Assembly (NCBI RefSeq): GCF_900101825.1
Contig: NZ_FNAG01000008.1
Span: forward strand, 1 to 64,000
Direction: 5' to 3'
DNA from: Aquimonas voraii
GTDB lineage: Bacteria > Pseudomonadota > Gammaproteobacteria > Xanthomonadales > Xanthomonadaceae
Length of the DNA stretch: 64,000 bases
Made by a program: the position numbers and the translations under genes. Of the stretch, positions 1,195 to 21,942 are shown one piece after another; position 1 is the stretch's first letter, and each line of letters begins with the position of its first letter. The notes beneath the pieces are model-generated. The model did no database searches, had not been told where the DNA came from, and saw only the letters and a list, made by a program, of their open reading frames with translations.

Positions 1195-2049
1195 TCACAT
1201 CGTCAGCGCCTCTCCCGTCGGGCTGAGCAGCTTCAGGGGCGAAGGCGTGGGCGAGATCGGCACGCTGCTCCTGCGGCTCTCGGCTTCGCGCGCCAGGGCT
1301 TCCAGCGGACGCCCCAGCGGCGTCGACAGCTCGAACAGCACCGGCGTGTTCTCCGGGCGGCGCCCGCCGGTGCCGGCGTACATGCCGCTGATCGTGAACG
1401 TCATGGGCACCAGCATCTGATGTGCTGTGCCGTCCGTGCGCGGCTCGACGAAGTCGAAGCGCCAGCTCTGCACAGCCTCCACGGAAGCCCGCGCAAAGGG
1501 CTCGACCAGGTGCCGGTGGCGTCTCTCACTGCGGACGTTCCGGTTGAGCACCCGCGCGCTCACCGGCTCGGCGATCGCGACCCCGCCCTCGTTGTCCAGG
1601 GTCAGGCGCAGCAGCACTTCCGCAGCGATCCGGTTCCCCAGCGACTGAGCGGGATAGCGCGGTGGGGTGAGGTTCTGCGCCAGTGGCTGCCCGAACTCGG
1701 CGGTCGCCAGCACCAGCTGGTAGCCCGCTGCGGATTTCAGCTGGTCGAGGCGCGCATAGACCGAGGTGCGGATGCGGCGCGGCGTGCCGTCGAGCACGTA
1801 GGGCGCAAAGGTCCAGTTCTGCATCACCTGCAGGACCTTGGTTTCAATGCTCGGCAGCAACTGGTTGGGCTGCAGCTTGACCTGTTCGACGCGGCCGCTG
1901 GCGTCGACTTCGATGACGCCGGCGAGATGGATGGATTCGAGCACCTGCGCCTGCCCGGTGACGGCCGCCGTTTCGGCCAGGGCGGGCGGAGCGGGCACGA
2001 GCGGCGAGGCCAGGGCGGCCGCAAGTAGAACGGCAAGGGTCTTGTTCAT
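1195..2049 (-). CDS. Secreted TonB C-terminal-domain protein (paralog 1)
   Basis: A 284-aa protein. The start at 2049 was chosen because it gives a clear Sec signal peptide ([18 protein letters not shown]..., cleavage near ALAET); a longer frame upstream adds an arginine-rich stretch with no leader character. Two TonB_C-like halves follow: VEQVKLQPNQLLPS...WTFAPYVLDGTPRR near residues 50-95, and PPRYPAQSLGNRIAAEVLLR near 128-150 leading to VEAVQSWRFDF. There is no N-terminal transmembrane anchor or proline-rich spacer of classical TonB, so it is probably a periplasmic TonB_C-fold protein rather than an energy transducer. The next minus-strand gene upstream is a paralog with the same order of motifs. 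Function unknown. Confidence 0.75.
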   Translation of the reverse strand: MNKTLAVLLAAALASPLVPAPPALAETAAVTGQAQVLESIHLAGVIEVDASGRVEQVKLQPNQLLPSIETKVLQVMQNWTFAPYVLDGTPRRIRTSVYARLDQLKSAAGYQLVLATAEFGQPLAQNLTPPRYPAQSLGNRIAAEVLLRLTLDNEGGVAIAEPVSARVLNRNVRSERRHRHLVEPFARASVEAVQSWRFDFVEPRTDGTAHQMLVPMTFTISGMYAGTGGRRPENTPVLFELSTPLGRPLEALAREAESRRSSVPISPTPSPLKLLSPTGEALTM

Positions 2050-2299
2050 GGAGTCAGTCTCAGGAGTCAGCCAAGGAATGCAGGTCACGGATGAACCCGG
2101 CGGCGCCGGTCTCTGGCGGCGCGCGGGCGATGACGGCCGCACAGCCTTTGCGTGACGCGGTTCGCGCGCCCGCGCCAGCGGGTTGGACGGCGCGCGCAAG
2201 CATCGGCCGCGCCGCACGCGCATTGAACCTGTCAGATCTGACGGGGTGGCCTTGGCGGGTGATGTTCGGACGGCCCAGCTTCGGCGCTGCGCTGGAGCC

Positions 2300-18050: not shown

Positions 18051-18099
18051 GGAAGCTTTTGCGCCGGTGTGAACGATCCGGCCCGGGCGAAAAGCTTCC
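18051..18099. repeat. Long imperfect inverted repeat after the DUF6164-like gene
   Basis: The 17-nt arms 18051-18067 and 18083-18099 (GGAAGCTTTT on the left, AAAAGCTTCC on the right) pair almost perfectly, around a 15-nt loop. It could be a transcription end for the upstream operon or an operator site before luxR; it has no T-tract. Confidence 0.55.
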
Positions 18100-18259: not shown

Positions 18260-18997
18260 ATGGCCATGTCACTGCGCGCCCTGCGGGCCTTATCGAACGT
18301 TGGCAGCCCCGAACAGCTCAGTCAGGAGTTGGGCCGGGTCCTTGAACGCCTCGGCGTCGACCATTGGGTCTATGCGATCAACCTGCCCCTGGTGAACGAT
18401 CGCCAGAACCAGTACACCCTCGGCGACTACCCGATGGCCTGGGTCGAGCACTACCTCGCCAACGACTACCTGAAGATCGATCCGGTGGTCGCCCACTGTC
18501 ATGACAACAGCACGCCCTTTCTCTGGAGCGAGGCCCAGCTGCGCGCCCGCTGTGCTGTCGACCCCCACCACCAGCTGGTCAAGCGGATGTTCGAGGAGGC
18601 CGAAGGCTATGGGCTCGGTGCGGGCGTCAGCATTCCTCTGCACGGACCGGGGGCCTGCTGGGGCCTGATGTCCTTCGCGGGTCCGCGCGAGCGCACCGCG
18701 GAGATCGAACGCCGTCTGCCCGAGTTGATGCTGGTGGCGCACTACGCTCATGAAGCGGCGCGACCTTTCGCTCGCAGCCGCGCTTGCACCAGCACGCCCG
18801 AGCTCACCCGCCGCGAGCGCGAATGCCTGCACTGGGCGGCCGAGGGCAAGACCAGCTGGGAGGTCGGGCGCCTGATCGGTGTCAGCGAGCGCACCGCGAT
18901 CTATCACCTCCAGAACGCGGCGAAGAAGCTGGAGGTGAGCGGTCGCCAGGCCGCCGTGGCGCGCGCCATCTCGCTGGGACTCATCAGTCCATCCTGA
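18260..18997 (+). CDS. luxR: LuxR-family quorum-sensing receptor/regulator
   Basis: A 245-aa protein. The N-terminal autoinducer-binding domain keeps the residues that contact acyl-homoserine lactones in TraR/LasR: W61, Y65, D74, P75 and W89, plus the glycine-rich GYGLGAGVSIPLHG at 116-129. The C-terminal GerE helix-turn-helix (TPELTRRERECLHWAAEGKT, then EVGRLIGVSERTAIYHLQNA) spans about 180-240. These conserved residues, and a luxI homologue about 470 bp downstream on the same strand, make it a canonical AHL receptor rather than a diverged solo. ATG at 18266 is an alternative start. A strong terminator closes its transcript, so luxI has its own promoter. Confidence 0.93.
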   Translation: MAMSLRALRALSNVGSPEQLSQELGRVLERLGVDHWVYAINLPLVNDRQNQYTLGDYPMAWVEHYLANDYLKIDPVVAHCHDNSTPFLWSEAQLRARCAVDPHHQLVKRMFEEAEGYGLGAGVSIPLHGPGACWGLMSFAGPRERTAEIERRLPELMLVAHYAHEAARPFARSRACTSTPELTRRERECLHWAAEGKTSWEVGRLIGVSERTAIYHLQNAAKKLEVSGRQAAVARAISLGLISPS

Positions 18998-19052
18998 TCG
19001 CCCCCCGAGCCGCATGACTCCGGACGCCGGGGGAGGGTAGGCCGGAGGGAGT

Positions 19053-19089
19053 CCCCGGTTGCTGGGTCCAGCAACCGGGGTCTTTTTTT
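19053..19089 (+). terminator. Strong Rho-independent terminator after luxR
   Basis: A perfect 12-bp GC-rich stem (19053-19064 with 19069-19080), loop GGTC, followed directly by TCTTTTTTT. It separates luxR and luxI into independent transcripts. Confidence 0.93.
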
Positions 19090-19393
19090 GTGGCAGAGCG
19101 AGAGGCGCTGCGGCTCGGCACGTGAAGTCCAAACCCTGGGGTCGGGTGAAGGCCCGCGTGTCCTCGATGGCCTCGGGCGAAGCCGGCCATGCGCGCCTGC
19201 CACGCGGCGGACACCCATTCGCGCGGGTACGCACGCCAGCGACATGCCTCGCACCTGCCGGCGAGTTTGGATGCGGTCCGATGCTTGCTGGCAGCGCCGA
19301 GCTTACCCTGCCATGTCCCAGCGCCGCGTCCGACGATTCGCTGCAAACCCAGGCAGCAAGCGCCTTCGCGCGGGCGCTGTGATGCCCATCATC
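19090..19393 (+). other. luxR-luxI intergenic DNA without a clear gene
   Basis: No protein gene supported in these 304 bp. Open frames exist but lack start signals and read as arginine/alanine-rich high-GC noise. A small RNA or a target of another regulator could lie here; nothing in the sequence shows it. Confidence 0.4.
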
Positions 19394-19425
19394 CTGTCAG
19401 GTCCTACAGCTGTCGGAACCGACAG
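19394..19425 (+). promoter_or_regulatory. Two abutting lux/las-type boxes upstream of luxI
   Basis: Two 16-bp CT-N12-AG elements sit end to end. The distal one, 19394-19409 (CTGTCAGGTCCTACAG), is an imperfect dyad. The proximal one, 19410-19425 (CTGTCGGAACCGACAG), has perfect 7-bp arms. CT-N12-AG is the core of LasR/RhlR-type boxes. The proximal box ends 46 bp before the luxI ATG, which is compatible with LuxR binding next to a -35 region and positive autoregulation. No good sigma-70 -10 is seen, as expected for an activator-dependent promoter. Confidence 0.68.
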
Positions 19426-19471
19426 GGTGGCGCTCTGCTGGTCCTCCGCACTGTCGCGGAGGAGACCATCC

Positions 19472-20089
19472 ATGATCGAGATCAGCATTGCGCGCGCCGG
19501 TGAAGGTGCGCTGTCGGCCGGCCTGTTGGACAGTATGTTTCGTCTGCGTGCCGAGGTATTTCACCAGCGCTTGGGTTGGGATGTGAGGGTCGAACAGGGG
19601 CGGGAGCACGACTGGTTCGATCTGGTCGGCCCGCGCTACCTCGTTGCCCACAGTCTTGGCTCCCTGCCGCGAGCCTTGGGCTGTTGCCGGCTGCTGCCCT
19701 CGCAGGGCCCCAACATGCTGCGCGACGTGTTTCCCGAACTGTTGGACGGTGCGCCCGCGCCCGCGGCACCGGATGTGTTGGAGGTCAGCCGGTTCGCGGT
19801 GGCGGAGAACTGCACGGAGGCGGGCATCGGCTTCAGTGCGGTGCCGGCCGCCATGGTGGCCGCGGTTCTGCAGGACTCGGCGGCACGCGGTGCCAGTGCG
19901 GTGGTGGGAGTCACCAGCGCGGCCTTCGAGCGGATGCTGCTGGGGCTTGGCATTGAGCTGCGCCGTCTCGGTCGGGCTCGGCGCATCGGACGGGTCGTGA
20001 GCCTGGCCTTTGAACTGCCCCTGACTGCAGGCAACCTCCAGGCCGTTTCTCCGTACGCGCTCTCCAGCGGGACCGCACGCGCGGCCTGA
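19472..20089 (+). CDS. luxI: Acyl-homoserine-lactone synthase (LuxI family)
   Basis: A 205-aa protein starting at 19472 with an ideal GGAGGAG seven bases upstream. The residues invariant in LuxI synthases are in place: R26, F30 and W36 in FRLRAEVFHQRLGW, D47 and D50 in REHDWFD, R73 in GCCRLLP, F87 in MLRDVFPEL, and E104 and R107 in LEVSRFAV. The enzyme joins an acyl group (from acyl-ACP or acyl-CoA) to S-adenosylmethionine to make an AHL; acyl-chain preference cannot be read. Preceded by two lux-type boxes and partnered with the upstream luxR. Confidence 0.94.
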   Translation: MIEISIARAGEGALSAGLLDSMFRLRAEVFHQRLGWDVRVEQGREHDWFDLVGPRYLVAHSLGSLPRALGCCRLLPSQGPNMLRDVFPELLDGAPAPAAPDVLEVSRFAVAENCTEAGIGFSAVPAAMVAAVLQDSAARGASAVVGVTSAAFERMLLGLGIELRRLGRARRIGRVVSLAFELPLTAGNLQAVSPYALSSGTARAA

Positions 20090-20113
20090 GGCTGTCGGCA
20101 GCCAGGGTCAGAG

Positions 20114-20139
20114 GGCAGCGGGCCTTGCGGCCCGCTGCC
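20114..20139. terminator. Shared hairpin between luxI and the convergent DUF3050 gene
   Basis: A perfect 11-bp stem (20114-20124 with 20129-20139), loop TTGC, in the 58-bp gap between convergent stops. There is no U-tract, so it may act as an mRNA 3'-end stabiliser as much as a terminator. Confidence 0.6.
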
Positions 20140-20147
20140 TGCCAGGC

Positions 20148-20981
20148 TCAGAACGCGGTCGCCAACGCAGGTGTCTTGGCCGGTGCGCTGGCACCCAGCG
20201 AACGCAGGACTTCGTAGGCGCCATCCCAGAGCTGGTGGCGCGCGCGCAGGGCGTCGCTGGCCGCGAGTCGCGCCGCCTCAAGGCCCTGCGGATTGCGCTC
20301 CAGTTCCCTGCCGATCAGTCGCGCCGCGGCAGGGCCGTGGCTGTCAGCGTCGAGCTCGATATGGCGCTCCAGGTAGTAGACGAACTGCGGCGCATCCGAT
20401 GGCTTCAGCGACCAGCTGTCCAGCAGGCCTTGGAACATCGTGGGGATCACGTTCTCGCGGCCGTACAGGAAGCTCGCCATCACCTGCAGCCTGCTGCCGT
20501 TGAGCGCGGTGTCCATGGTGTGGCTGACGAACTCGCGCACGAACCAGGGGATGCTCTCGTCCGCCAGCGCCACGCTCAGCATCTCGCCGTCGCGCAGGGC
20601 GTCCATGAAGCGGTCGAAGACCCGGGTATCCGCCCCGACCTCGCGCATCGCGCCGAGGTAGAGATCCAGATGGCTGGCCGGGTGGCCATCGGCGCCAATA
20701 TCGCTTTCCTCTCCCAGCACGATGTCGTTGATGAGGCGAGCCGCCTCCGGGTTGGACGGCGGCATCCACGGGATCTGCGTGCAGGTCAATTCGTTCTGCA
20801 GGCGCTTGACCAGGGACATGAAGTCCCAGACCGCGAAGATGTGGATCTCCATGAAGGCACGAAGGTGCTCGCGCTCCTTCAGGGCGGCGAATACCGGATG
20901 GGTTTCAAGCCCCGCCCGCAGTTCGCGGATGTCGGACGTCAGAACCGGATCAGGCGTAGCGTGGCTGTGGGCGGTGCTCAT
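20148..20981 (-). CDS. DUF3050 family protein, haem-oxygenase-like fold
   Basis: A 277-aa protein I recognise as DUF3050. It is mainly helical and shows the spaced His/Asp/Glu pattern of haem-oxygenase-like proteins: MEIHIFAVWDFMSLVKRLQ (44-62), EESDIGADGHPASHLDLYL (91-109), GRENVIPTMFQ (174-184) and YLERHIELDADSHGP (203-217). Candidate metal ligands are E45, H47, E92, H104, E176, H207, D211 and H215. Relatives with this fold include non-haem di-iron oxidases/oxygenases; whether this one binds iron is inference. It is convergent to luxI, 58 bp away, with an 8-bp hairpin in its own leader (21016-21034). Confidence 0.8.
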   Translation of the reverse strand: MSTAHSHATPDPVLTSDIRELRAGLETHPVFAALKEREHLRAFMEIHIFAVWDFMSLVKRLQNELTCTQIPWMPPSNPEAARLINDIVLGEESDIGADGHPASHLDLYLGAMREVGADTRVFDRFMDALRDGEMLSVALADESIPWFVREFVSHTMDTALNGSRLQVMASFLYGRENVIPTMFQGLLDSWSLKPSDAPQFVYYLERHIELDADSHGPAAARLIGRELERNPQGLEAARLAASDALRARHQLWDGAYEVLRSLGASAPAKTPALATAF

Positions 20982-21252: not shown

Positions 21253-21783
21253 TCAGTTCGGCTGGTACAGCGGGTACAGGCTGGCTTCTTCGCGCTGGAT
21301 GCGCTGGCTGAGCAGGCCGCCGACCACGGCGTAGTCGCGTAGGAAGGCGTCGCGCGTCGCCTCGTTGAAGGCGGCGCGCTGGTACTTCTTGACGAAATCG
21401 ACGACGCCGCGCGCGATCGCGTTCATCTCGCGGCGGAAGCTGCGGATCAGGGCGAGGTTCTCCTCGTCACCGATCAGCGAGTTCTCGACGTAGTTGTAGA
21501 AGCGCACGTTCTCGGCGATGACGTGGCTTTCGAGGCCGGTCTTGAACGCCACCAGCAGCGCGGGCAACTCATGGAAGCGACCGCGCTCGGCGACCTGGCC
21601 GATCTGCTGGAACAGCTCGACCAGATCGTGGTGGTCGTGCTTCAGCGTTTCGACGAGGCGCGAGTCGTAGGCGGGAACGCGGGCGGCGAGCGAACCCGCC
21701 GGTGCAGCGGCTCCACGCGCCGGCGGCGGAGCGGCGACGGCAGTGTTGTCCTGGCCCATCAAGCGCTTGACGAATTCAAACAT
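21253..21783 (-). CDS. Hemerythrin (HHE) domain protein
   Basis: A 176-aa protein; start at 21783 has GGGGAG 7-8 bases upstream. An N-terminal Ala/Pro linker (15-35) precedes a four-helix HHE domain. Likely iron ligands are H49, H51 or H52 (LKHDHHDLVELF), H71 in FHELPALL, H87 and E91 in LESHVIAENVRFY, with a C-terminal EEASLYPLY. Hemerythrin-like proteins bind O2, NO or iron, or repair iron centres. The final ligand position ends in Y/L instead of the usual H/E-rich stretch, so full di-iron binding is unsure. A hairpin (21211-21235) lies just past its stop. Confidence 0.85.
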   Translation of the reverse strand: MFEFVKRLMGQDNTAVAAPPPARGAAAPAGSLAARVPAYDSRLVETLKHDHHDLVELFQQIGQVAERGRFHELPALLVAFKTGLESHVIAENVRFYNYVENSLIGDEENLALIRSFRREMNAIARGVVDFVKKYQRAAFNEATRDAFLRDYAVVGGLLSQRIQREEASLYPLYQPN

Positions 21784-21942
21784 GGCGAATCTCCCCTGTG
21801 CTTCCGCGGACGGATACGGGAGAGAACAGTAGCCCGAGGCTGGACGGCAGGGCACCTGTCAGAAATCGCAGGTTGGTGGATTTCACGCTTTCACCTGCCC
21901 GACACGCGGGTCGGCGTGTCGGGCAGGCGATTGATGCCTGTC

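Follow-up and report, generated by a model that had tools for sequence, protein, structure and literature searches.

A luxR-luxI pair and a conserved, presumed hemerythrin-DUF3050 operon under predicted quorum-sensing control in Aquimonas voraii and related Lysobacteraceae

The locus and its proteins

We analysed a stretch of 64,000 nucleotides from Aquimonas voraii (contig NZ_FNAG01000008.1, positions 1 to 64,000), called the window below. A preliminary description of this DNA had placed luxR, a terminator, two lux boxes and luxI on one strand, with a convergent DUF3050 gene, and we found all of these in place. The true unit has one gene more. It consists of luxR and luxI, which read forward, and DUF3050 and a hemerythrin gene, which read in the opposite direction. 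The features are as follows.

1195..2049, - strand: predicted regulon gene for an exported protein with a TonB_C domain, downstream of the 2229-2244 box
2229..2244, no strand assigned: further lux box CTGTCAGATCTGACGG, predicted regulon; conserved island in a congener
18260..18997, + strand: luxR, AHL-binding transcriptional regulator (PF03472 and PF00196, PDB search, key residues)
19053..19087, + strand: intrinsic terminator 3' of luxR (stem 19053-19080, then a T-run)
19393..19426, + strand: two tandem lux boxes (cores 19394-19409 and 19410-19425), conserved in relatives
19472..20089, + strand: luxI, acyl-homoserine-lactone synthase (PF00765, LasI match, invariant residues)
20114..20139, no strand assigned: perfect hairpin, GGCAGCGGGCC-TTGC-GGCCCGCTGCC, between the convergent luxI and DUF3050 genes
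20148..20981, - strand: DUF3050, predicted HamA-like heme-oxygenase-like di-iron oxidase, 277 aa (PF11251, HamA match, ligands)
21253..21783, - strand: hemerythrin HHE protein gene (PF01814), present in all DUF3050-luxI loci examined
21854..21873, - strand: lux box ACCTGCGATTTCTGACAGGT upstream of the hemerythrin gene, matched in 19/19 loci

In the luxR terminator, 9 of the 12 base pairs of the stem are GC and a T-run follows, and the hairpin at 20114-20139 is likely a terminator shared by luxI and DUF3050. Upstream of luxR, at 18051-18099, lies a 17-nt inverted repeat with a 15-nt loop. No known RNA was matched in the region in Rfam. A foreign origin of the locus was rejected; its GC content is uniform at 0.66-0.70.

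LuxR (245 aa) carries an autoinducer-binding domain (PF03472, E 1.3e-38, 132 bits) and a LuxR-type HTH (PF00196, E 1.5e-14, 53.8 bits), both above the Pfam cut-off. In a PDB search it was LasR/RhlR-like, and its acyl-HSL pocket residues align with those of LasR. LuxI (205 aa) matched PF00765 in Pfam (E 1.1e-30, 107 bits against a cut-off of 24) and LasI in the PDB (E 3.7e-28). The key residues listed previously were confirmed letter by letter in LuxR (W61, Y65, D74, P75, W89) and in LuxI (R26, F30, W36, D47, D50, R73, E104, R107), and those of LuxI were invariant across 20 relatives. LasR and LasI of P. aeruginosa, the best PDB sequence matches of the two proteins, are also encoded by a luxR and luxI gene pair. 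Each sequence feature of an AHL system that we looked for was found, and we infer, as had been proposed, that the organism makes and senses an AHL. Because a search of the whole 4.43-Mb genome yielded neither another luxI nor a further gene for an AHL-binding domain, this appears to be its only AHL pair.

As a LuxR/LuxI system, the pair is unremarkable. Nor is AHL signalling new to this bacterial family: Lysobacter brunescens OH23 is reported to have a working pair, LbsR/LbsI, and AHLs were detected there (PMC6902743). The reported identities of LbsI and LbsR to their P. aeruginosa counterparts are 38% and 33% (PMC6902743). By their published description they are likewise a luxR-luxI pair, and the text of that paper makes no mention of a DUF protein or a heme oxygenase (PMC6902743).

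The other two proteins of the unit were also matched well above their Pfam cut-offs: DUF3050 to PF11251 (E 8.1e-82, 274.8 bits against 22.2) and the hemerythrin to PF01814 (46 bits against 25.3). The AlphaFold2 model of DUF3050 (pLDDT 88.7) has a heme-oxygenase-like fold, and its best match was PDB 9vwb, titled 'HamA, a Heme-Oxygenase-Like Enzyme' (47% identity, TM 0.82/0.91). Residues E92, H104, E176, H207, D211 and H215 were invariant across 26 proteins and are predicted to be the di-iron ligands, by analogy with CADD (PMC4520260). UndA, CADD and other heme-oxygenase-like di-iron oxidases have the same helical fold and ligand set (PMC4520260), but are only 13-17% identical to DUF3050. Fold, matches and ligands together place DUF3050 among the heme-oxygenase-like di-iron oxidases of the HamA type, and it would be active as an enzyme.

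Distribution of the four-gene unit

It had been stated that a full AHL pair is less usual in xanthomonads. Our survey agrees with this, as 30 of the 395 family genomes that we sampled have a luxI. By identity to the window LuxI these genes form two sets, 23 at ≥53% and seven at ~30%. The seven (G072, G130, G167, G271, G302, G379 and G400) have no DUF3050 in reach. In the first set, DUF3050 adjoins luxI in 22 of 23 cases, and the one remaining luxI reaches the end of its contig. The association is nearly as tight from the other side: among the 24 clear DUF3050 genes in these 395 genomes, 22 are beside luxI and two are in genomes without luxI. In a second collection, the first set includes Lysobacter daejeonensis, L. 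spongiae, L. penaei, L. maris, L. aestuarii, L. chinensis, L. psychrotolerans and Pseudomarimonas arenosa.

Two individual genomes deserve mention. In G016 (L006 / L024), a single-contig assembly, the clade luxI is interrupted near codon 71 by an in-frame TGA, which may be decay or a sequence error. In G125 (L045), a DUF3050 gene without luxI adjoins genes that by eye resemble those for OleA and a haloalkane-dehalogenase-like hydrolase.

We took every coding-like frame in 26 kb of the window and looked for it in the loci of 18 named relatives. Only luxR, luxI, DUF3050 and hemerythrin were matched, each in 18/18 loci, and the hemerythrin gene was found in all DUF3050-luxI loci examined. The preliminary description had allowed that luxR and luxI might prove to be unrelated neighbours in close relatives; this is not so, and the pair is kept together. 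The evolutionary distances of the four proteins are correlated (r 0.80-0.91). In Lysobacter the block is adjoined by rplM-rpsI, which are not near it in the window genome. In one MAG locus (L100) the order is rearranged, with DUF3050 between luxR and luxI, and the four genes are still together. Most Lysobacter loci have flanking synteny in common too, and the 22 luxI-DUF3050 cases are therefore not independent; the independent genomic contexts number about three, namely Lysobacter, the window genus and Pseudomarimonas.

The idea of one clade for all luxI-linked DUF3050 was rejected: 19 of 20 such proteins fell in one group, and that of Pseudomarimonas is at an unresolved fork. A class-wide linkage was likewise rejected: 26 of 369 sampled Gammaproteobacteria have DUF3050, and only the window genome among them has luxI within 1.5 kb. 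Thus, the linkage is a family trait. DUF3050 was also not found near the LuxI (36-46% identity) of Nitrosospira, Nitrotoga, Bosea, Pseudomonas and other loci. We found no description of the luxI-DUF3050-hemerythrin unit in the open-access papers searched, a limited set.

Lux boxes and the predicted regulon

The lux boxes at luxI are adjacent 16-bp dyads, CTGTCAGGTCCTACAG (19394-19409) and CTGTCGGAACCGACAG (19410-19425), within a stretch (19393-19426) that is 45 bp before the luxI start codon. The single box at 21854-21873 is 70 bp before the hemerythrin start codon. To compare 19 loci, we searched the 220 bp before each gene for the best match to the 12 fixed bases of the box and accepted up to three mismatches of 12, a threshold that shuffles pass at 6%. 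A match was found upstream of luxI in 19/19 loci and upstream of hemerythrin in 19/19. A box directly before DUF3050 or luxR was rejected, with matches in 1/19 loci each, which is the chance level. The hemerythrin box is closer to the consensus than the luxI boxes, and in seven of the 19 loci it is a perfect ACCTGT-N8-ACAGGT. It starts 85-116 bp before the start codon in 18/19 loci; in the 19th it is at 44 bp, with the start codon there uncertain. The hemerythrin box has been retained despite a mean LuxI divergence of 39%, and control upstream regions are without a box.

The earlier suggestion that DUF3050 may be under quorum-sensing control stands only in part. There is a conserved lux box before the hemerythrin gene upstream of it, but none before DUF3050 itself. 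DUF3050 is probably the second gene of a hemerythrin operon. The gap between the two genes is 271 bp in the window, ~270-290 bp in its genus and ~60 bp in L. daejeonensis, and co-transcription is not certain because of its length in the window genus.

A genome from the same taxonomic order without a luxI match, G046 (L069), has DUF3050 and two hemerythrin genes, and no lux box was found before this DUF3050-hemerythrin group. From this genome, the enzyme pair may predate its quorum-sensing control.

The boxes extend beyond the locus. The palindrome CTGTCRGATCYGACAG, with up to two mismatches, occurs at 16 sites in the window genome against one for a reversed-pattern control, a count that is partly circular because the pattern was learned there. 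In the congener G003 there are 27 sites against 0. A related pattern gave 31 sites over 14 luxI-bearing genomes, 0 in 16 family members without detected luxI (by protein search, with 13 of the 16 additionally listed without a PF00765 match) and one control match over all genomes scanned. With the window genome set aside, 20 of these sites are left in 13 luxI-bearing genomes, and they are the independent evidence. Seven of the 14 luxI-bearing genomes have no match to the exact pattern, because box sequences drift between genera. Taken together, these counts indicate that the genome carries a real lux-box regulon.

Seven sites are at orthologous positions in G003, and several are islands of identity in otherwise diverged DNA; the pair L207/L249 is weak. 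Such an island is the 2229-2244 box, before the exported TonB_C gene at 1195-2049. Genes near the sites encode the TonB_C protein, a LodA_N-domain protein, a TPR protein, a cadherin-domain protein, an SpvB/FG-GAP protein and a subtilase, with gene starts and target assignments approximate. The box L211 (G000:C33:57179) is upstream of a protein with a C-terminal LodA_N match and is conserved at two places in G003. The LodA_N / quinoprotein lysine oxidase family makes H2O2. A perfect box lies directly 3' of the subtilase stop codon and is retained in the congener (L182 / L235). Another perfect box (L184 / L222) follows a histidine-kinase-like gene, ~200 bp before the gene for a 63-aa exported peptide, which had no Pfam match.

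A model for the unit and its output

The genes, the boxes, their conservation and the co-occurrence with luxI are read directly from the DNA, and on this basis we propose a model. LuxI would make an AHL, as its family and residues suggest. Once it has bound the AHL, LuxR would occupy the two boxes ahead of luxI, in a positive feedback loop, as well as the single box ahead of hemerythrin. There it would act as an activator rather than a repressor and switch on the presumed hemerythrin-DUF3050 operon, which converges on luxI. LuxR may also act at some 15-25 other sites, many of which have genes for exported proteins nearby. DUF3050 and hemerythrin would be the dedicated, conserved enzymatic output of the AHL system. 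We are confident in this view of a self-contained four-gene AHL module with a wider regulon. The luxR-luxI pair travels with the hemerythrin-DUF3050 operon and very probably switches it on, and this regulation is well supported by sequence alone.

What the operon does can be approached through the relatives of DUF3050. HamA, PvfA and MgoB are parts of clusters that make diazeniumdiolate signals (PMC5878181, PMC10194917, PMC3298696), and they have the DUF3050 domain as in the window, MgoB being recorded as DUF3050. The ham cluster also has an AHL link, as it is reduced in a mutant of the AHL receptor cepR. When a hamA mutant was fed a dihydrosydnone N-oxide intermediate, fragin and valdiazen were restored (PMC11659414), which places HamA ahead of this point in the pathway. 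The ham, pvf and mgo genes, however, share their operons with genes for an NRPS and an AurF-like N-oxygenase, whereas the partner of the window DUF3050 is hemerythrin. There was no PF11583 match for an AurF-like N-oxygenase in the window genome, and AurF was absent from 13 of 15 other luxI-DUF3050 genomes tested. At the locus, no NRPS (HamD/MgoA) is beside DUF3050, whose neighbours are hemerythrin and luxI. We therefore rejected a place within a complete ham/pvf/mgo pathway; with AurF absent, DUF3050 here would be a family member that works outside the diazeniumdiolate pathway.

It is quite possible, at a little below an even chance in our judgement, that the operon makes no signal at all and is a density-triggered protection against O2, NO or redox stress. 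Hemerythrin would bind O2 or NO, and DUF3050 would consume O2, NO or a reactive by-product. The hemerythrin domain, above its cut-off beside a di-iron oxidase fold, is consistent with this, as are the DUF3050-hemerythrin pair that stands alone in G046 and the predicted regulon site before a LodA_N-domain gene. On the other hand, HamA, the closest characterised relative, sits in biosynthetic signal clusters (PMC5878181, PMC11659414). More tentatively, a HamA-type oxidase with hemerythrin and without NRPS or AurF could make or modify an N-O or NO-derived small metabolite.

The tight linkage and co-occurrence of DUF3050 with luxI would also fit an oxidation or degradation of the AHL acyl chain by DUF3050, shaping or ending the signal, and UndA, which acts on fatty acids, is among its structural neighbours. 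We consider this improbable: UndA is matched only remotely (13% identity), DUF3050 is downstream of the hemerythrin gene and not part of the luxI transcript, and two family genomes keep it without luxI. That the four genes are adjacent through shared ancestry alone and are functionally unconnected, as the long flanking synteny of most Lysobacter loci might suggest, is very hard to reconcile with a unit that is intact in differing surroundings, a linkage that survives in the rearranged L100, and a hemerythrin box that was kept while LuxI diverged.

In sum, what is new here is the conserved quorum-sensing-controlled hemerythrin-DUF3050 operon, as the luxR-luxI pair is of an already known type. 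A family known mainly for DSF signalling and LuxR solos gains a concrete AHL circuit for which a regulon can be predicted, and the hemerythrin-HamA pair is one named, conserved target whose function becomes directly askable. As DUF3050 enzymes are unexplained in the valdiazen and leudiazen pathways, this stripped-down, two-gene setting may ease the finding of their reaction. Last, the unit suggests a specific new output of bacterial communication; if the operon does yield an N-O or NO-derived metabolite, this would be a second chemical message or a metallophore under AHL control in the Lysobacteraceae.
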